From positions 1 through 7,536 of the forward strand of contig WJOQ01000102.1 of the NCBI GenBank assembly GCA_009618505.1: a stretch of DNA of 7,536 nt. The letters are read 5' to 3'. Position numbers and translations under genes: made by a program. How positions within the stretch are numbered: the first letter of the stretch is position 1; each line of letters starts with the position of its first letter. This stretch comes from Clostridia bacterium. GTDB lineage: Bacteria; Aerophobota; Aerophobia; Aerophobales; AE-B3A. This document shows, one piece after another, positions 154 through 7,536 of this stretch. The notes beneath the pieces were generated by a model. It ran no database searches. It saw only the letters and a list, made by a program, of their open reading frames with translations, and had not been told where the DNA came from.

Positions 154-996
154 CTAGCAATCAGAGAGATTTCCTAATCTTCTGACATAAGATAAAGAAG
201 CGCCCACGATTTTGTTAATTTCCTCAATTTCTAAGGGAGGCTTTGTCTTTTTTGGAACTCTGTCTTCCTTCATTTCCAATCTGAGAGGTAATTCAATACT
301 CATAGGGATTTTCTCAGGGATTTTTTTTAGTATCCTAAAAATTTCTCGATAATCTATAATCCCCTTCCCGATTTGGGTGAAATGCCAGGTATCTTTCTCT
401 AACCGTGTATCTTTAAGATGTAAGTGCACTATATATTTCAGCATAGATTCAAAGTCTTTCTCCAGGTTAATTTTACCTCTAGTAGAGTGGAAAGAGTTAA
501 CAAAGTCGTAGTTAATCCTCACATTCTCTGAATTTATTTTCTCTATTACCCTAAGGCTTGATCTATCCGAAATAATATCTCCGTGAGTTTCAAGAGCTAC
601 GATCAAACCCATTGATTTGGCAAGTTTATCAATGGATTTAATATTTTTATAAAAGGTGTCGATTCTCTCTAAGGGACCAGAAAATGTATTGATAATCTTT
701 ACATCTAAACTTTTAGCAAATCTCATTTTTTTCTCAAAAAGAGGAACTGTCTCTTCTTTGCTTAAGTCCATATGAGCAGAGAATGCGATAGAGGAGAGAT
801 GAAATCGCCTCATCATTGCGCCAATTCTTTTCTCAAACGCACTGTCTTCCAAATGTTGTAGCTCGATATGCTCAGATAATCCTTCTATAGCATCCAGCTC
901 CACATAACGGCTCCCAAGCTGAGATATCTCTTTCAAGGAGGTCTCCAGGTTGTATCCATCGTATGCGATGGTGCTGATTGATATTATCTCGTTCAC
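154..996 (-). CDS. Sugar phosphate isomerase/epimerase-like TIM-barrel protein (xylose isomerase-like fold)
   Basis: This 280-residue protein has the layout of the AP_endonuc_2 / xylose-isomerase-like TIM barrel, and its length fits the family. Seen in the sequence: the early strand and helix 'SRYVELDAIEG', then SAHMD (His near residue 75), VALETHGD (Glu near 136, His near 138), NYDFVN (Asp near 164), HLHLKDT (His 191, His 193, Asp 196), IGKGIIDY (the usual GxGxxD/Y turn near 210) and a terminal SIELPL (Glu near 235). These sit where the family keeps its divalent-metal ligands and catalytic Glu/His residues, so an active metal-dependent isomerase, epimerase or dehydratase is likely. The substrate cannot be told. 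An upstream ATG at 1020 is open in frame, but AGGAGG at 1008-1003 lies inside that extension, 6 bases before a GTG at 996, so I use the GTG. It follows the amidohydrolase by 16 bases, within one operon. Confidence 0.85.
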   Translation of the reverse strand: MNEIISISTIAYDGYNLETSLKEISQLGSRYVELDAIEGLSEHIELQHLEDSAFEKRIGAMMRRFHLSSIAFSAHMDLSKEETVPLFEKKMRFAKSLDVKIINTFSGPLERIDTFYKNIKSIDKLAKSMGLIVALETHGDIISDRSSLRVIEKINSENVRINYDFVNSFHSTRGKINLEKDFESMLKYIVHLHLKDTRLEKDTWHFTQIGKGIIDYREIFRILKKIPEKIPMSIELPLRLEMKEDRVPKKTKPPLEIEEINKIVGASLSYVRRLGNLSDC

Positions 997-1002
997 CCAA
1001 AG

Positions 1003-1008
1003 CCTCCT
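1003..1008 (-). promoter_or_regulatory. Shine-Dalgarno site deciding the GTG start at 996
   Basis: AGGAGG on the minus strand, then CTTTGG, then GTG. It lies in the 16-base gap between the amidohydrolase stop (1013-1015) and the GTG. It argues against the longer ATG start at 1020, which would overlap the preceding stop codon. Confidence 0.75.
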
Positions 1009-1012
1009 TGTT

Positions 1013-1765
1013 TTAATCATCTATTGGTAAATTAAAAAAATCCTTAGCTGTCTTATAAAGACACTGCTGAAGTTCTTCTTCAGATAATCCCATACTTCTA
1101 AACTTAGCTAATTCTACAGGGCAGTTTTCAAGCATATCTGAGCCAAACATAATTCTTTTTGCCCCGATGGGTTTAATCCACTTCTGGATAATATGAATTG
1201 CCACCCAGGAAGGCTCTAAAAATATGTTTTCGCATTCCTGTGCTACAATTAAAGCTTCCCCGGCTGAGATATTTCCTCCAGCATGAGCTAAGACAATTTT
1301 TAACTGAGGAAACCTTTTTGCTACCGGCATTACCAAGCTTGGGAGTGCAAATGGGATACCAGATCCGGTATGAACCATTACCGGAATTCCTAATCCATTT
1401 GCTCTCTCAAAAACTCTTATACCATCCTTAGAAAGAGGGTTGCAGGCATGAGCAATGGGAGTCAATTTAATCCCAACAAAACCCAATTTCTGAACGCAAC
1501 GGGTTGCCTCTTCCTCAAATTCCTTTTCTTTTAAATGAGGATTTATGGAAATCATTCCAAAAATTCTGTTTGGATTCTGTCTGCTCATCTCGGCAATTCG
1601 ATTGTGAATTTGCTGAGCAGCATCAATACTTGGGGTGTCAACCATGGGTTGAACCACTGCTGCATCAACTCCGTTGGCATTCATTACATCAAGAATCTCT
1701 TTTTCCGATTGTTCCTCATCAAAAACTCTGTCATGTCCCAGGTGAACATGGGCATCAATAATCAT
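1013..1765 (-). CDS. Amidohydrolase family protein (Amidohydrolase_2 / ACMSD-like metal-dependent hydrolase)
   Basis: A 250-residue TIM-barrel metallohydrolase. The amino terminus reads MIIDAHVHLG, giving the HxH metal pair (His6, His8) after a beta strand. Further ligands are placed as in the Amidohydrolase_2 family: VMVHTG (His132), IVLAHAGG (His161) and FGSDML (Asp210, the invariant GSD aspartate). GIKL around Lys100 is also typical. Members hydrolyse C-N or C-O bonds (lactones, amides) or decarboxylate; next to sugar-acid enzymes, a lactonase role is plausible but only inferred. The length is at the short end of the family (usually about 250-330). The ATG at 1765 has a modest GAGG 7 bases upstream. 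It precedes the TIM-barrel gene in the same operon and follows the glycoside-hydrolase relic by 49 bases. Family: confident; substrate: unknown. Confidence 0.88.
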   Translation of the reverse strand: MIIDAHVHLGHDRVFDEEQSEKEILDVMNANGVDAAVVQPMVDTPSIDAAQQIHNRIAEMSRQNPNRIFGMISINPHLKEKEFEEEATRCVQKLGFVGIKLTPIAHACNPLSKDGIRVFERANGLGIPVMVHTGSGIPFALPSLVMPVAKRFPQLKIVLAHAGGNISAGEALIVAQECENIFLEPSWVAIHIIQKWIKPIGAKRIMFGSDMLENCPVELAKFRSMGLSEEELQQCLYKTAKDFFNLPIDD

Positions 1766-1814: not shown

Positions 1815-2035
1815 TTATTCTATAGCCTCAAGTACAAGAACCCAATCTAGGAGTTTCTCCATATCATTTCCAAAATCATTCATTATACAAAGGCCCGAAG
1901 GAGCACCTCGCTAGGTGGAGAGTCCCCATCGTAGAAGGCAGGAATGCTAACTTCTCCTTTAGAAGGCCTCATAAAAGTGCAGTTTATATCTATGTCTGCG
2001 AAAGGATTATAACTAAACGTTTTTGGCAAAAGCAT
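1815..2035 (-). pseudogene. Relic of a DUF5060-type glycoside hydrolase, interior deleted
   Basis: Two frames here match opposite ends of the intact glycoside hydrolase at 5450-7039. The upstream part (2035 to about 1919) encodes NPFADIDINCTFMRPSKG and ends in PAFYDGDS. Over 31 aligned residues I count 17 identities to residues 20-50 of the intact protein (NPFLDVEFNC...GFYDGDS). That frame then runs to a stop at 1883. In another frame the downstream part (about 1865 to the TAA at 1815) encodes LDWVLVLEAIE and stop, matching the intact carboxyl terminus SDWVLVLRKIG. About 470 residues between them are missing, with a frame change, so no enzyme can be made. The first codons overlap the end of the nucleoside-hydrolase-like gene by about 23 bases, so the operon junction survives. 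Divergence from the intact gene suggests a once-functional paralogue, not a partial duplication. Assembly collapse is the main alternative. Confidence 0.75.
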
Positions 2036-2936
2036 CGAGTTTTCTAAAGAAGTCATTAAAGATTTCTCCAGCTGTAACCTCAAGGCAAACTTCTATCATC
2101 CTTTTTGTAGGTTCATGTTTATATTCAAGTCTTTCTGTCAGGTGAGGTGCTGGTAAACTAACGTAAAATCCCCAATTAGGATTAATCATAGTTCCAATAG
2201 TTGGAGAATCTCCATAGACCCACCATTGGCGTGAAAAGGGTCTTTCCACCCCCCGCTCCTTGAACAGGGGTATTAAGTCTATTCCCCATTTCTTGAACAA
2301 AGATGTTAAATAATCACCAATAGCTTCTTTTCCCATGACAAAACGCTCCATTTCAGCAACACCCAAACGCATCATACGATATGTTCCTCGGGGATACTGA
2401 ACCAAAGGAATATCAGATTGAAGCACTACATCAGCCGAAATCCAATCATTACCCGCGTTGAATTCTGGTCCCCCAGTAGGCCACCAACCACCCCCAATCC
2501 ATAAAGTTACTAAGTTTTGAGAAATATTCGATTCCATCAAGTATGCCGAGGCCATATCAGTCAGGGGCCCAAGGTAGGCTACGTAAAGAGGATCGGTTTC
2601 GTTTTTTGCCAAAGCTTGGTCAATGATAAATTCGGCACCTTCGGACTTTTGAGGCACTTTAGGGTCTGTCAAAGCGACAGAAGAGCCTTTAAGGACGGGT
2701 ACATTATTCTCCATCCCAAGGAGGGCAAGTAAACGTAAAATTTCCTGGTAGCTTCTTTCCATACTATTGGCATGCCTTTTTGTACCATAATGAGCAGCAA
2801 TTATCCCCGTAACTTTGAGCTCTGGTGACAGCAACGCATGGACAATAGCCATCTGATCGTCAATTTCGTTATAAGCGTCGGTATTTAAGATAACTCGACG
2901 TGGTCTTTCCATTGTGGGTTTGCCAGCTAATAGCAT
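2013..2936 (-). CDS. Nucleoside hydrolase-like protein (IU_nuc_hydro superfamily)
   Basis: A 307-residue protein of the inosine-uridine-preferring nucleoside hydrolase fold, typical length. The amino-terminal motif is NTDAYNEIDDQMA (residues 18-30), a variant of the classical DTDxxxDD calcium and ribose site, with Asn in place of the first Asp and a two-residue insertion. Asp20, Asp26 and Asp27 remain. Other family landmarks are GPLTDMA (123-129), WIGGG (146-150), PEFNAGND (157-164, the ribose-contacting EFN segment) and GDSPT (Asp243, the late calcium ligand). The protein probably binds a ribosyl-like sugar and hydrolyses a glycosidic bond; in this setting the substrate may be a non-nucleoside glycoside, which is inference. 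AGGAGG lies 8 bases upstream of the ATG. It is the second gene after the regulator, 64 bases downstream of it. No signal peptide is seen, so it is cytoplasmic. Confidence 0.85.
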   Translation of the reverse strand: MLLAGKPTMERPRRVILNTDAYNEIDDQMAIVHALLSPELKVTGIIAAHYGTKRHANSMERSYQEILRLLALLGMENNVPVLKGSSVALTDPKVPQKSEGAEFIIDQALAKNETDPLYVAYLGPLTDMASAYLMESNISQNLVTLWIGGGWWPTGGPEFNAGNDWISADVVLQSDIPLVQYPRGTYRMMRLGVAEMERFVMGKEAIGDYLTSLFKKWGIDLIPLFKERGVERPFSRQWWVYGDSPTIGTMINPNWGFYVSLPAPHLTERLEYKHEPTKRMIEVCLEVTAGEIFNDFFRKLDAFAKNV

Positions 2937-3000: not shown

Positions 3001-3939
3001 TTATGACAACTTTTCTTCCAGTTTTACCAAGTTATTTGCGGTTTCCTCATCAGTGATTAGAATCTTTATAAACCTCCCATGAATAGCACCCAGAATAGCC
3101 TTCACTTTCGCTTTGCCCCCAGCCACTCCAATAACATTCTTCATCTCTCTCAGGTCTTCCAGAGGAAAAGCCACAATTCTTTTATGGAGGTCACAGTCAA
3201 CTTTTTCACCCTGGGCATTGAAAAACTGGGCTAGGATATCTCCCACGGCACCTTGCTGGCGTAGAGCTTCGGTTTCTCCTAGATTGAGATATCTCAGCTT
3301 AACCAACGTCGATTCTTCTCCAGCTACTCCAATGCCCACCATAGAGTAGTCAGTGTGCTTGGCCATTTCCAGTGCCTGCTGTACAGTAGCATCTGCTTTG
3401 AGAGAAAGGCAAAGCTCTTCTGATGTGGTTATGGCAGGGGCATGAACATAATAACACTGTCCTCCAAAGATATGGGCTAGTCTACTTCCCGCATCGTAGG
3501 GATTTAGATAAAATGAGGGAACAAGTCCCCCATTGAGGGTGACTATTCTAAGATCGTGGATTCCTTGCGAGTGAATAAATGTAGGTACTTCGGATATGGT
3601 GATTCCCCAACCCACAGCAAAGAGGCTTCCACTGGTGAGATGCCTCTCCAGGTATTGAGCGGCGGCTCTGGCTAAACTCTCTTTGATCTTGTTTTGCGAA
3701 ACTGTGGGAACCACTACTGCATCCTGTAAATCAAACAAATTAATGATTTTTTTCTCAATCTCCAGGCAATTCCCGGTAGGTCCAAGCACCTGAAAATGGA
3801 TAATTCCATTCTCCCGTGCTTTCTGAAGCAGACGACCTACCTTGCTGCGCGATAGGCCCAGCATGGTAGCGATCTGGCTCTCCTTTAATCCTTCCTTGTA
3901 GTAAAGCCAGGCTATTCTCGTTATCAGGCCTGTCATCAT
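3001..3939 (-). CDS. SorC/DeoR-type sugar-binding transcriptional regulator
   Basis: A 312-residue regulator with SorC-family architecture and normal length. The amino-terminal helix-turn-helix covers about residues 5-50: ITRIAWLYYKEGLKESQIA, then the recognition helix LGLSRSKVGRLLQKAR. The rest is the sugar-binding (phosphosugar-isomerase-like) domain, with conserved VGWGITISE (about 109-117), TLNGG, VGIGVAG and GVAGGKAKVKAI (about 271-283) ending in ILITDE. Members are usually tetramers whose DNA binding is relieved by a phosphorylated sugar. I prefer ATG 3939 because GGAGG at 3952-3948 lies 8 bases upstream; the frame is open to a TTG at 3960, but that start would contain the Shine-Dalgarno. 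It is first in its transcription unit, directly behind a promoter with tandem palindromes, so autoregulation is likely. The same palindromes precede the glycoside hydrolase, its probable second target. Confidence 0.9.
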   Translation of the reverse strand: MMTGLITRIAWLYYKEGLKESQIATMLGLSRSKVGRLLQKARENGIIHFQVLGPTGNCLEIEKKIINLFDLQDAVVVPTVSQNKIKESLARAAAQYLERHLTSGSLFAVGWGITISEVPTFIHSQGIHDLRIVTLNGGLVPSFYLNPYDAGSRLAHIFGGQCYYVHAPAITTSEELCLSLKADATVQQALEMAKHTDYSMVGIGVAGEESTLVKLRYLNLGETEALRQQGAVGDILAQFFNAQGEKVDCDLHKRIVAFPLEDLREMKNVIGVAGGKAKVKAILGAIHGRFIKILITDEETANNLVKLEEKLS

Positions 3940-3952: not shown

Positions 3953-3965
3953 ACGCTCAAGCTCT

Positions 3966-3996
3966 CTCAACTTTGAGCATTTTCTCAATAATTGAA
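3966..3996 (-). promoter_or_regulatory. Putative tandem operator in front of the SorC regulator
   Basis: On the transcribed-sense strand there are two palindromes: TTCAATTATTGAG (3996-3984) and, after 6 bases, CTCAAAGTTGAG (3977-3966). The second is a perfect CTCAA-AG-TTGAG inverted repeat; the first is near-perfect. They begin about 14 bases downstream of the -10 element, so a bound repressor would sit over the start of the transcript. The arrangement, including the 18-base offset, recurs at 7061-7091. Two adjacent dimer sites suit the tetrameric habit of SorC-family repressors. Binding by the neighbouring regulator is inferred. Confidence 0.7.
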
Positions 3997-4010
3997 CATA
4001 ATCTTATTAT

Positions 4011-4038
4011 ATTATAATATAAATATAAAAAGTGTCAA
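4011..4038 (-). promoter_or_regulatory. Sigma-70-type promoter of the regulator operon
   Basis: The minus strand reads TTGACA (4038-4033), a 16-base AT-rich spacer, and a consensus TATAAT (4016-4011). Transcription should start near 4003-4005, leaving a leader of about 65 bases before ATG 3939. The same hexamer layout and spacer recur at 7106-7133. Confidence 0.8.
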
Positions 4039-4068
4039 GGGGTTGTGTTGGTCAGGAGCTTTCATAGC

Positions 4069-5130
4069 TTACCTATCTTCCTTTTTATCAAGAACATCAG
4101 GGTTTACAACATGTTGAGGTCTTACTCCCTTCAAATAATCTTCTATGCCACGAGTAACAATAGAAGATGCCTTTTCGTAATTGTCGTAACAGGCACCAGC
4201 TATATGAGGGGTAAGCACTACATTGTCCAGATCCAGAAGAGGATCACTGGGTTTGAGCGGTTCATTCTCAAACACGTCAAGGGCAGCACCAGCAATGCGT
4301 CTCTCCTTGAGTACCCTGTATAGTGCTTTCTGGTCAACTATGGCGCCCCTAGCGGTGTTAATGAAAAATGCAGTAGGTTTCATAAGTTCCAGCTCTCTTT
4401 TCCCCACAAGAGCTAACGTCTTAGGTTCAACTTTTACGTGAATGCTTACAAAATCAGCCTGGCGGAAGAGAGTATCTTTGTCCACTAATCTCACACCGAT
4501 TCTCTCTGCGTTTTCTCTGGAGACGTAAGGATCATGAGCAATTACGTTCATTCTAAAGGCACCTGCTCTGCGCGCAACTTCCTTTCCAATAGCTCCTAGA
4601 CCGAGAATACCAAGAGCTTTTCCCGTGAGCCCAATACCTTTTAGCTTCAAATAAGGAAAATTTTCCGGATTATTTGTTACCCAGACGATATCCCGGGGAG
4701 CAAAACCAGGTCTTCGTGGATTCACTTCGGTTAACTGAAAGGTTTTTACAAGAAAATGTCCTTTCGCTATGTACCGTGTTGCAGCTAACAACAGTCCGAT
4801 AGTGAAATCTGCTACCACATCCGAGGATCTGCTCGGTGAATAAAGAACCAGGATGCCTCTTCTGGTAGCTGCCTCAATATCTATGTTTGCTTGTGGCCCA
4901 GCACGCACAGAAGCGATGAGTTTGAGCTGTTTACTTCTGGTTAAAGCTTCTTCAGTAATCTCTTCAAACTCCACGATAAACATATCTATGTCGTGAATCT
5001 CTTGAATAAGCTCCTCTGGCTCCAATACACGGGATATCCGAGGAAGTCCTCTAATACGTATCTCATCAAAGTATTTTTTAAGTTTCTCTAAGTCTTCCCC
5101 TTTTATGAAAGTGGTAACTAACAACTTCAC
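4069..5130 (-). CDS. D-isomer-specific 2-hydroxyacid dehydrogenase, NAD-dependent
   Basis: A 353-residue cytoplasmic oxidoreductase of the 2-Hacid_dh family, interconverting a 2-hydroxyacid and its 2-keto acid with NAD(H). The catalytic domain is split around the cofactor domain as usual. Seen directly: SVRAGPQANID (74-84, substrate loop), GILGLGAIGKEVA (GxGxxG at 177-182), Asp200 ending the second cofactor strand (favouring NAD over NADP), NTARGAIVD (catalytic Arg261), LDVFENEP (Glu290) and LTPHIAG (His309). All three catalytic residues are present. It is longer than the usual 310-330 residues because of extra sequence at about 126-167, before the Rossmann motif. The start is a GTG at 5130 with AGGGAG 8 bases upstream. 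It follows the kinase relic by about 19 bases and probably relies on the glycoside-hydrolase promoter. Substrate unknown; a sugar-derived hydroxyacid is inferred. Confidence 0.9.
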   Translation of the reverse strand: MKLLVTTFIKGEDLEKLKKYFDEIRIRGLPRISRVLEPEELIQEIHDIDMFIVEFEEITEEALTRSKQLKLIASVRAGPQANIDIEAATRRGILVLYSPSRSSDVVADFTIGLLLAATRYIAKGHFLVKTFQLTEVNPRRPGFAPRDIVWVTNNPENFPYLKLKGIGLTGKALGILGLGAIGKEVARRAGAFRMNVIAHDPYVSRENAERIGVRLVDKDTLFRQADFVSIHVKVEPKTLALVGKRELELMKPTAFFINTARGAIVDQKALYRVLKERRIAGAALDVFENEPLKPSDPLLDLDNVVLTPHIAGACYDNYEKASSIVTRGIEDYLKGVRPQHVVNPDVLDKKEDR

Positions 5131-5149
5131 TTCCGTCTCTCCCTAACAG

Positions 5150-5237
5150 TTATACACTAGGCATAATCACCATATATTCTTCGACAGCCTTTAGCTCCAC
5201 CGGTACCATAATCTATCCCCACCAGATAATCTGTCAT
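5150..5237 (-). pseudogene. Relic of an FGGY-family carbohydrate kinase (amino terminus only)
   Basis: From an ATG at 5237 the minus strand encodes MTDYLVGIDYGTGGAKGC and then stops at 5157 after 26 codons. GIDxGTGGxK is the first phosphate-binding motif of FGGY kinases (xylulose, ribulose and fuculose kinases), normally about 500 residues. In another frame, a shift near the lysine gives VEEYMVIMPSV and a TAA at 5152-5150, resembling the 'EEYPVIxP' segment that follows some 15-20 residues later in intact kinases; this suggests a small deletion and then loss of the rest. The Shine-Dalgarno GAGAGG (5251-5246) survives 8 bases upstream, and the ATG overlaps a stop in the TAATG manner typical of operons. 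The relic sits between the isomerase relic and the dehydrogenase. The first motif is clear; the second match is tentative. Confidence 0.65.
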
Positions 5238-5283
5238 TAAGTTCGCCTCTCGGGGGGATTTTTTCTCTTGCCATCACCCACAA

Positions 5284-5430
5284 TTACATCTGCTTTTGTC
5301 CCAACACTTTCATCATCTCTTTCCGGCCAGCTTTAGCAAGTTCATCAGGAAAGCAATCACCATTACCTACCATCAAACCTAAAGTAAGACTCAGTATTTC
5401 TGTGAATGTTTTCTTATCTCTTGATCTCAT
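5284..5430 (-). pseudogene. Relic of an L-fucose/L-arabinose isomerase-family-like gene (amino terminus)
   Basis: A 48-codon open frame from ATG 5430 to TAA 5284 encodes LTLGLMVGNGDCFPDELAKA followed by GRKEMMKVLG. This resembles the amino terminus of fucose-isomerase-like sugar isomerases, which begin with a strand of the form 'xxGxIVGNRxFFP' followed by 'LxxxGRxEMxKVLE'. Such proteins are normally about 450-500 residues, so nearly all of the enzyme is missing. Downstream, another frame stays open from about 5333 to the TAA at 5239-5237 (ADVIVGDGKRK and onward), overlapping the kinase relic's ATG; I cannot assign it, but its stop is where the isomerase stop would be expected. Runs of six G/C and of A/T at about 5253-5264 are prone to indels. 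The start lies 19 bases after the glycoside hydrolase stop. The assignment comes from a short remembered motif, so confidence is moderate. Confidence 0.55.
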
Positions 5431-5449
5431 CGTCTTTAAAGTTGTCCTG

Positions 5450-7039
5450 TTAACCTATTTTTCTCAAAACCAGGACCCAGTCACTACTATGAGAGGATTC
5501 TGTCTGGAATTTTACCTTGTTTTTCCTTATCTCTTTCTGCGCTTTTGACACCTCTCCAGTCCGTGGATCATACCAGAGGCTCTCAAATTCTCTTGCATTA
5601 GGAAGGTTCAATATAACACTTCCACCAACGGGTAGGTACAGAAGAACAGCATCTCCTTGCCCAGTAGAGATACAGAGGGGTTTGGTACCGAACTTGTATC
5701 GCACAGACTGATCTATAATCCGGGAATCCGGCTTGAAGCGATGGAATTCTACCGTATTTGTAAAGAAATTCTTCAATGTAAGTAAATATTTCATGCCCTC
5801 CTGATCCTCATCGGGAATCCACCATGGTCCCCAGGTATTCTCAAATCCATGGATTATTCCGGTACCAGAAAAAGCACCTCTCCAGGCTCCCCGCCGGGTA
5901 TGCTCTGGATCCATATGCTCGTGACTCGGGATCTTGAGTTCAAGACCGGGGTTGCGCTCATACCCGTATTCTGCAAAAATGCAGGATCCCTCCCACTCTT
6001 TTAAGCTGGAGGAGATCTTACCCTCAATCCCGGCTGCTAACCAGGCATCATCTTTTCCTCGTGTTCCCCAGGTCTGAAACATGACAAGGTCTATTACTCC
6101 TGGTGCCCTCTTGAACCTTTTCGCAAATGGAGGATCCTCGGGCCCGTTATGGACAGCCACAGGATGTCCATGGGGGGCAATATTTTTGACAAACCTTCCT
6201 GTACGTATGGCCCAAAGGTCTGCCTCGGGCTTGTAGTGCCAGTCACCATTTGGGTAGTACTCGTACTCATTCATTAAAGTCCAGATATACACACTGTTGA
6301 AGGCGTCATACCTTGCAATAAGGTACCTCATCCATAATTCCTCGTATTCCGGGATAAAGACATTTCGGGCATTGAATGGGTATTCGAATCCCCAGCCCTC
6401 CATAATCATCTCAAATCCAATTCCCAATTCTTCGGCCAGGCCCACAACTTTATCCACCGTTTGGAAATACTCAAGATTGAAACGGTCAAAAACTGGTTTC
6501 TGAGGTGAGCCGCGCCAGGGCCAGGTTGAACGGACTTGCCAATCGTTGTATCCCTCCGGAGGATGGAAGAGGCTGACCGGAAGCCTAACTCTGATAAGAT
6601 TGAATCCCTGCTGGGCACGGCGCTTCAATACACCTTCCACATCCAGACCACAGTAGGCTACACCGAACAGGTTGTATATGGTATCGCCAAAGACAAAAGA
6701 GGGCTCACCGGATTCATATTCAAGCCCCCAATATTTCCCTGGACAGGTCTTCAGAAATCCTCGTACTGGTTTGTCTGGTTCCACAACCTCGAACTGAGCG
6801 GTAGAGGAGAGGTCCGGATCAGAAACCCGGGTTGAAGTCTTGTAGGACCAGGCGCCTACCTCATTGGGGGAAAATCTTACCTTCCAAACGCTATCCCCAT
6901 CATAGAAACCTGGCATCACATACTCTTTCCCTGAAGGGGATATGAAACTACAGTTAAACTCTACATCAAGAAATGGGTTCTCATACTTCTTTCTGGTTTT
7001 AAGCTTCAGTTCCAAGACAGATCTTCTTTTGATAGGCAA
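5450..7039 (-). CDS. Putative glycoside hydrolase with DUF5060 N-terminal domain and DUF4038-like TIM barrel
   Basis: A 529-residue protein with three regions. Residues about 8-90 form a beta-rich DUF5060-like domain (YENPFLDVEFNC, FYDGDSVWKVRF, NEVGAWSY). Residues about 100-430 form a (beta/alpha)8 barrel with the opening FVFGDTIYNLF, RAQQGFNLIRVRL and FEMIMEGWGF. The carboxyl-terminal 100 residues look like a beta-sandwich (DAVLLYLPVGGSVIL, ending DWVLVLRKIG). In the clan GH-A style, likely acid/base and nucleophile are Glu258 (WTLMNEYEY) and Glu357 (FAEYGYE), each ending a barrel strand. Aromatics near the mouth (WGPWWIPD, FQTWG) fit sugar binding. There is no signal peptide, so it acts inside the cell, probably on imported oligosaccharides or glycosides. 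The start is a TTG at 7039 with a strong GGGAGGG 7 bases upstream. It is first in its unit, behind a SorC-type operator. Specificity is unknown. Confidence 0.88.
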   Translation of the reverse strand: MPIKRRSVLELKLKTRKKYENPFLDVEFNCSFISPSGKEYVMPGFYDGDSVWKVRFSPNEVGAWSYKTSTRVSDPDLSSTAQFEVVEPDKPVRGFLKTCPGKYWGLEYESGEPSFVFGDTIYNLFGVAYCGLDVEGVLKRRAQQGFNLIRVRLPVSLFHPPEGYNDWQVRSTWPWRGSPQKPVFDRFNLEYFQTVDKVVGLAEELGIGFEMIMEGWGFEYPFNARNVFIPEYEELWMRYLIARYDAFNSVYIWTLMNEYEYYPNGDWHYKPEADLWAIRTGRFVKNIAPHGHPVAVHNGPEDPPFAKRFKRAPGVIDLVMFQTWGTRGKDDAWLAAGIEGKISSSLKEWEGSCIFAEYGYERNPGLELKIPSHEHMDPEHTRRGAWRGAFSGTGIIHGFENTWGPWWIPDEDQEGMKYLLTLKNFFTNTVEFHRFKPDSRIIDQSVRYKFGTKPLCISTGQGDAVLLYLPVGGSVILNLPNAREFESLWYDPRTGEVSKAQKEIRKNKVKFQTESSHSSDWVLVLRKIG

Positions 7040-7060
7040 TTTATATCCCTCCCTTACTCT

Positions 7061-7091
7061 CTCGACTTTGAGTATTTTCTCAGAAAGTGAA
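7061..7091 (-). promoter_or_regulatory. Putative tandem operator in front of the glycoside hydrolase
   Basis: On the minus strand: TTCACTTTCTGAG (7091-7079), 6 bases, then CTCAAAGTCGAG (7072-7061). It is the counterpart of the site at 3966-3996, with identical spacing. Across the surrounding 44 bases (7057-7100 against 3962-4005) I count 39 identities, although the coding sequences that follow are unrelated. It again begins about 15 bases downstream of the -10 element, consistent with repression by the same SorC protein. Confidence 0.7.
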
Positions 7092-7105
7092 CATAATCTT
7101 GTTGT

Positions 7106-7133
7106 AGTATAGTCAAAAAATTCTGAGTGTCAA
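7106..7133 (-). promoter_or_regulatory. Sigma-70-type promoter of the glycoside hydrolase unit
   Basis: TTGACA (7133-7128), a 16-base spacer, TATACT (7111-7106) on the minus strand. The predicted transcript start is near 7098-7100, with a leader of about 60 bases to the TTG at 7039. Confidence 0.78.
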
Positions 7134-7216
7134 GGAGGCGCTTCTCTTTTTCTTTTCTGAAAAATTGAAAATTGACGCTGACTTTGGGTTCTCAGTACGA
7201 AAACAGATTCAAATAA

Positions 7217-7415: not shown

Positions 7416-7493
7416 AAAAACACTATAAAATTGAGAACAGCGCTCGTTTAAAGCGTCTATGAATAGTAATGCGTCGTGCGTGATACCTATTGC

Positions 7494-7528
7494 GCAATAC
7501 GACATACGATATACGCAATACGAGATTA
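7494..7528. repeat. Degenerate heptad tandem repeat
   Basis: Five consecutive 7-base units, gcaatac, gacatac, gatatac, gcaatac and gagatta, reach to within 8 bases of the right edge and may continue beyond it. The bases between the two repeat tracts (7416-7493) hold no gene that I can see. Confidence 0.6.
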
Positions 7529-7536
7529 TCCTGAAG

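Follow-up and report, generated by a model that had tools for sequence, protein, structure and literature searches.

The 7,536-base stretch analysed here (the window; positions 1 to 7,536 of contig WJOQ01000102.1 in assembly GCA_009618505.1, from an Aerophobota bacterium) raises the question of why the same promoter, followed by the same block of short palindromic elements, stands before two separate genes, one for a SorC-family regulator (sorC) and one for a glycoside hydrolase. Most likely this shared switch stems from copying of the sorC promoter, with one protein controlling both genes: the block is, with good confidence, read as the operator of the adjacent regulator, which would repress its own unit and, via the copied module, a hydrolase-dehydrogenase unit. 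The preliminary description of this DNA had reported a 44-base block with 39 identities, and these were confirmed, against 30 of 44 for the next best ungapped pair of 44-mers in the window, direct or inverted. Extended across the promoters, the 79-base modules (3962-4040 and 7057-7135) agree at 63 positions, as compared to 49 (inverted) and 46 (direct) for the next best pairs in the window. The promoter elements, TTGACA and TATAAT or TATACT around a 16-base spacer, were likewise as described, matching the consensus at 12/12 and 11/12 positions and ranking first (sorC) and second (hydrolase) in a sigma-70 scan of the window, where such matches as a class were no commoner than in shuffled sequence (16 found, a mean of 13.7 expected). 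A double-palindrome pattern taken from the preliminary description matched exactly at 3966-3996, with three mismatches at 7061-7091 and nowhere else in the window at that limit; 0.01 matches were expected by chance, and none of 200 shuffles contained two. An exact 42-base pattern searched in viral contigs gave no matches.

To parse the block, four sites were aligned, namely those of the window sorC gene (W_sorC) and hydrolase gene (W_GH) and those before the sorC genes of two related genomes (L001 and G007). Columns kept in all four read AAGA-N-TATG-N-TCA-N-T-N3-TGAGAAAAT-N-CTCAAA-N-T. The four sites favour an operator whose core would be the inner dyad TTGAG-N6-CTCAA, containing the longest run of invariant columns, with a weaker copy 19 bp upstream. 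The inner dyad pairs at 5/5 positions in W_sorC, L001, and G007 and at 4/5 in W_GH; written as TTGA-N8-TCAA it is exact at three of the four sites, and as TGA-N8-TCA at all four. In the upstream half-operator, ATAAG and YTCAA are preserved in L001 and G007. Compared as a direct repeat at 19 bp, the two half-operators agree at 8–12 of 16 positions, while other shifts from 14 to 26 give at most 7.

The module recurs beside orthologous regulators. A genome scan for relatives of the regulator gave 39 loci (L numbers), and a search of the 17 genomes of the Aerophobota phylum turned up sorC relatives in 9. In L001 (Aerophobetes Ae_b3b, genome G001), an 83% identical sorC is preceded by the same −35 hexamer, 16-base spacer, −10 hexamer, and operator, and in G007 a promoter-operator of the same layout, with TTGACG, precedes a partial sorC gene at the edge of a contig (95% identity over 38 residues). 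The module was present in both cases (2/2) where an orthologous sorC has upstream DNA for comparison, in support of the earlier proposal of a SorC operator common to sorC and the hydrolase. A two-half-operator pattern at up to three mismatches matched once in G001 and once in G007, on each occasion at sorC, and its reversed control gave no match, and a 27-base operator pattern at up to two mismatches matched in 3 of the 17 phylum genomes: at sorC in G001, at sorC in G007, and once elsewhere in G017, where the promoter layout is absent by eye. The preliminary description had named a widespread motif, or one missing beside orthologues, as outcomes contrary to its proposal; neither was observed, although its own pattern at up to three mismatches, scanned in five genomes, matched in three (at the G001 sorC with two mismatches, and at one three-mismatch place each in G002 and G005, counted without gene context) and once in the control. 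At up to four mismatches across the 39 loci, that pattern matched only at L001 (two mismatches), L006 (four), and L038 (four), the last about 5 kb from sorC. The single dyad TTGAG-N6-CTCAA, with 43 matches in the 17 genomes, was little commoner than its reverse, used as control, with 35; the full site is therefore not a common element, and a global regulon was rejected as an explanation. The one examined of four off-target single dyads in G001 (at C65) falls within a reading frame that presumably encodes pyruvate kinase.

The same dyad spacing was sought across the wider set of SorC homologues, using the upstream regions of 38 of the 39 loci (L038 was omitted; its match begins inside the gene). 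TGA-N8-TCA had 13 matches in 12 of these regions, as compared to 2–6 for the other spacings from 3 to 15; a count of 13 was reached by none of 200 shuffles at N8 and by 2 of 200 at any spacing. These 13 include L001, one match shared by two Fictibacillus, and three lying about 200 bases or more upstream; with L001 and the second Fictibacillus removed, 11 remained, again reached by 0 and 2 of 200 shuffles. The region of L005 carries two TGA-N8-TCA dyads 19 bp apart.

The preliminary description had cited CggR as an example of SorC-family repressors that bind two adjacent repeats as a tetramer; the N terminus of the regulator is not of the CggR type. Its C-terminal PF04198 sugar-binding effector domain (231 bits, residues 63–312 of the 319-residue open reading frame) is that of the SorC family and starts near residue 56 of the 312-residue protein; the N terminus drew HTH_23 and Sigma70_r4-like matches, each below its curated cut-off, and aligns with LsrR and DeoR from residue 6–8. 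According to PMC11229326, the SorC/DeoR subfamily has a short (50–60 residue) homeodomain-like helix-turn-helix (HTH), whereas SorC/CggR members have a winged HTH of about 100 residues. Because it combines PF04198 with a short HTH, the regulator is assigned by its predicted domain layout to the SorC/DeoR and not the CggR subfamily. LsrR and DeoR were its best relatives in the Protein Data Bank (PDB), and LsrR, which has the same type of HTH, was the best over the whole protein; LsrR serves a quorum-sensing operon, in a neighborhood unlike that of the window. Two NCBIfam regulator models matched, and the DeoR equivalog NF053881 scored 213.5 bits, below its curated cut-off of 420, so the protein is a relative of DeoR rather than DeoR itself. 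The closest homologue in the databases has the same length of 312 residues. Metagenomic homologues (P0003–P0018) are 80–88% identical, and the named close homologues are from Candidatus Aerophobetes, which makes that phylum the most likely origin of the window.

Among the closest known systems is Bacillus subtilis DeoR with the operator of its dra-nupC-pdp operon. DeoR, of the same subfamily by domain layout, reads a dyad of the same TTGA-N8-TCAA geometry with a second, weaker half-operator, the left half-operator being ATTGAACAAAATTTCAAT in PMC11229326, where R34 and R39 are reported, at limited resolution, to contact bases. Those arginines align with R31 and R36 of the window regulator, assuming an offset of 5 between PDB chain and paper numbering. 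In the L002 and L003 paralogues the second arginine is a glutamine (alignment of P0023 and P0028) and a different common palindromic element (ACATAAGTTA...TAACTTTTGTAA) follows the −10 hexamer, which would fit a role of that residue in recognizing the half-site. DeoR differs in controlling deoxyribonucleoside genes, where the window regulator is associated with sugar genes and a glycoside hydrolase, and in the lysine of its LKGG motif, which we take to be the effector lysine and which is asparagine here. The DeoR operator spans −60 to −21 with a 22-bp period. In the window the period is 19 bp, and a transcription start 7 bases beyond the −10 hexamer would put the operator at about −3 to +32. 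B. subtilis CggR autoregulates the gapA operon through tandem half-operators that lie past the promoter, as is proposed here; CggR differs in its winged HTH, its unrelated half-site (CGGGAC/TGTC), its 20-bp period, and an operator at +32 to +77 (both periods are our own counts on operators printed in PMC11229326). As read from the sequence, the system is an ordinary local autoregulating repressor circuit of the DeoR-type SorC kind, already known, with the neighboring hydrolase unit as its second target. A literature search, within the portions of papers available, found no report of this operator.

Several observations weigh against this interpretation. The 19-bp period differs from those of CggR and DeoR and lies outside the 20–22 bp expected for SorC-family tetramers, and by shuffling the repeat is clear at one of the four sites: the observed agreement was reached by 1 of 300 shuffles in L001, weakly separated from chance in W_sorC (31/300) and G007 (42/300), and not separated in W_GH (281/300). 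The hydrolase operator is the weakest of the four copies (dyad 4/5, TTCAC). The site is known in three species only, as four related copies, and its conservation is therefore shallow. Among eight regions upstream of sorC homologues without the module (L002–L007, L027, and L056, the register of L007 being approximate since its upstream stretch stops at a non-start codon), three (L002, L003, and L006) hold a perfect 5-N6-5 dyad, none of them TTGAG/CTCAA. Without Aerophobota the N8 matches fall to 8, with 3.0 expected, a count that turns up at one spacing or another in 26 of 200 shuffles (in 55 of 200 using only 120 bases), so the N8 excess outside the phylum is weak and suggestive only. A coding control, the first 280 bases of genes, gave 4 matches at N8 and, by noise, 8 at N12.

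Other explanations of the repeated block fared less well. The preliminary description had parsed it as two tandem palindromes of 12–13 bp (TTCAA-N3-TTGAG and CTCAA-N2-TTGAG), 6 bases apart and bound in the manner of CggR. The palindromes are present before sorC, where W_sorC fits exactly with 4/5 and 5/5 pairs (3/5 and 4/5 before the hydrolase), the left one pairs at 3/5 to 5/5 over the four sites, and the four-mismatch match at L006 adjoins the sorC paralogue just upstream. However, the second palindrome pairs worse in the relatives (W_sorC 5/5, W_GH 4/5, L001 3/5, G007 3/5), because its outermost right arm (3966-3970 in W_sorC) drifts: it reads TTGAG, TCGAG, TCTAG, or TGGAA and is intact at one of four sites, while the inner dyad is conserved. 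With a spacing unlike that of the DeoR dyad and a regulator outside the CggR subfamily, this parse is unlikely. A regulator other than the window SorC protein, local or global, could instead bind both modules, which are putative SorC sites, and the phylum has paralogous SorC genes. Yet the full site occurs in G001 and G007 at sorC only, and its dyad geometry is the one read by a characterized subfamily member, which leaves another binder decidedly improbable.

Two further alternatives dispense with a DNA-binding regulator at one or both genes. The hydrolase copy might be a neutral duplication or the end of a mobile element, devoid of regulatory role, and the five extra bases found in both window copies do imply a common origin. 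Against a neutral copy, the hexamers and half-operators were kept despite divergence of the spacer and flanks, both promoters score as the top two of the window, and a pattern scan of the window found no third copy; we consider it very improbable. The block might also act as RNA, a hairpin or riboswitch in the 5′ leaders of both transcripts. It does lie in the presumed 5′ untranslated regions, its palindromes can form a hairpin in the sorC leader, and few shuffles (6 of 200) equal or surpass the hydrolase leader in folding. But no Rfam family reached its gathering threshold in the window, the fold of the sorC leader does not exceed that of shuffles (z −0.67), and the leader of the hydrolase (z −2.30) takes a different structure, so that a role as RNA appears extremely unlikely.

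In the favored circuit, the regulator would repress its own promoter and with it sorC, the nucleoside hydrolase, the amidohydrolase, the TIM barrel, and then a dehydrogenase-like gene; the amidohydrolase and TIM barrel genes probably belong to this transcription unit. The copied module would place the hydrolase-dehydrogenase unit, just upstream, under the same repression, and the D-2-hydroxyacid dehydrogenase gene downstream of the hydrolase probably shares its transcript. A tetramer would hold the two half-operators 19 bp apart, the strong TTGAG-N6-CTCAA and the weaker upstream ATAAG-N6-TTCAA, and so block RNA polymerase, until a sugar, probably phosphorylated, bound the C-terminal domain and relieved the block. 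Overlap of the operator with the likely transcription start points to repression, as was argued from operator position for another bacterium in a survey (PMC8579813). The distance from −10 hexamer to operator differs by five bases between the window modules and those of L001 and G007; this half helix turn would suit steric blocking better than phased contact.

Gene neighborhoods fit such a circuit. In L003, from a member of the phylum, a sorC paralogue, a nucleoside hydrolase homologue (66%), and an apiosidase-like hydrolase stand in a row, an association of the apiosidase-like Pfam class with this group of regulators that does not depend on the motif. In L001, sorC precedes an ABC transporter with parts resembling sugar and glycerol-phosphate transporters, and sorC paralogues in L005, L006, and L007 precede RpiB-like isomerases; judged by predicted functions, the common theme is sugar uptake and use. 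After the sorC and transporter genes, L001:15112-18361 encodes a RuBisCO-like protein and a two-subunit E1-type thiamine-diphosphate enzyme. Apiose catabolism is not claimed, as the RuBisCO-like protein scored 219.7 bits against an OiaX cut-off of 700; its best model was 2,3-diketo-5-methylthiopentyl-1-phosphate enolase (360.4, below the cut-off of 409). Upstream of sorC, L001 and L061 carry an 816-residue gene (ClpC-like in L001), unlike the window, so gene order around sorC has changed.

As to how the hydrolase acquired its module, the preliminary description had taken the differing spacers as a sign of selection and not of recent duplication. Selection is retained, but the spacers give no argument against duplication. 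The hydrolase spacer agrees with those of the L001 and G007 sorC genes at 12/16 positions each, whereas the window sorC spacer agrees with them at 9/16 and 8/16, and with the hydrolase spacer at 8/16. Both window modules also have five extra bases between the −10 hexamer and the operator. The hydrolase module is therefore most plausibly an older copy of the sorC promoter that selection has retained; such a duplication with later purifying selection explains the data better than duplication or selection by itself. In the simplest account, the copy would have been made in this lineage after the five-base insertion, with the sorC spacer changing later. The hydrolase gene itself had two weak matches in the 17 phylum genomes, both in G008; an apiosidase-like protein exists in G003 and is too distant for that search. 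The nearest relatives of the window hydrolase are metagenomic (85% across the full length; 97% across 65% of it), and named ones include Bathyarchaeota (67–73%) and Chloroflexi-type bacteria (55–59%). Lateral acquisition of the gene is possible, not proven. We advance more tentatively, at somewhat less than even chances, that promoter capture widened the regulon, a complete autoregulated promoter-operator having been copied before a laterally acquired hydrolase, and that a 19-bp tandem DeoR-type operator is the rule in this Aerophobota SorC clade, unlike CggR and DeoR with their 20-bp and 22-bp operators.

By open reading frames and profile search, all recognizable genes of the window lie on the minus strand (Table 1). 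Remote PDB relatives of the hydrolase were 4n0r (a putative glycoside hydrolase) and 8t9w (an apiosidase), and orthologues of the D-2-hydroxyacid dehydrogenase occur in G003 and G015 at 75–76%. The gene start at the window edge matched no NCBIfam model, and the label dehydrogenase-like is our own presumption. Between the nucleoside hydrolase and amidohydrolase genes, 1815-2010 (minus strand) resembles a decayed DUF5060 hydrolase, whose N-terminal stretch is nearest to P0149 (87% over 30 residues, versus 57% to the window's own hydrolase) and whose C-terminal-like DWVLVL stretch lies in a different frame, the middle being gone; the L003 nucleoside hydrolase likewise has an apiosidase-like hydrolase gene after it. 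A kinase-like gene-start remnant at 5184-5243 (minus strand), between the hydrolase and the dehydrogenase, is 80% identical over 20 residues to L110; in L110 and L111 two such kinase-like genes, presumably FGGY-type kinases, lie upstream of the dehydrogenase orthologue. Noncoding sequence upstream of the hydrolase promoter (7441-7536) contains short recurring CGCAATACGA-like words.

Table 1. Features of the window, with positions numbered from its first base
Feature	Position	Strand	Remarks
sorC promoter, TTGACA-16-TATAAT	4011..4038	−	12/12 consensus match
Hydrolase promoter, TTGACA-16-TATACT	7106..7133	−	11/12 consensus match
44-base block of sorC	3962..4005	−	holds the two half-operators minus their first two bases, plus GAGAGAG
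44-base block of hydrolase	7057..7100	−	39/44 to 3962-4005
sorC core half-operator, TTGAG-AAAATG-CTCAA (TTGA-N8-TCAA)	3973..3988	−	four-site alignment
sorC upstream half-operator, ATAAG-ATTATG-TTCAA	3992..4007	−	weak dyad; direct repeat of core half-operator at 19 bp
Hydrolase core half-operator, CTGAG-AAAATA-CTCAA	7068..7083	−	4/5 dyad
Hydrolase upstream half-operator, ACAAG-ATTATG-TTCAC	7087..7102	−	four-site alignment
Glycoside hydrolase	5450..7039	−	DUF5060, apiosidase-like, and collagen-binding-2 domains; TTG start; domain search
D-2-hydroxyacid dehydrogenase	4069..5130	−	downstream of hydrolase; domain search
SorC-family, DeoR-subfamily sugar-sensing regulator (predicted), 312 aa	3001..3939	−	ATG at 3939; GGAGG ribosome site just upstream
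Nucleoside-hydrolase-like protein	2013..2936	−	first gene after sorC; domain search
Amidohydrolase	1013..1765	−	domain search
Xylose-isomerase-like TIM barrel	154..1020	−	domain search
Start of gene presumed dehydrogenase-like	2-124	−	76% (41 aa) to sequence close to an amidohydrolase homologue in G001 (L102)

For a SorC regulator of an uncultured phylum, the locus offers a concrete, testable candidate operator, and it connects an apiosidase-like hydrolase with that regulator. Comparison with orthologues also re-parses an operator that seems obvious from one sequence. If the promoter copy is true, it would be a clean example of regulon growth by copying of a regulator's own promoter.

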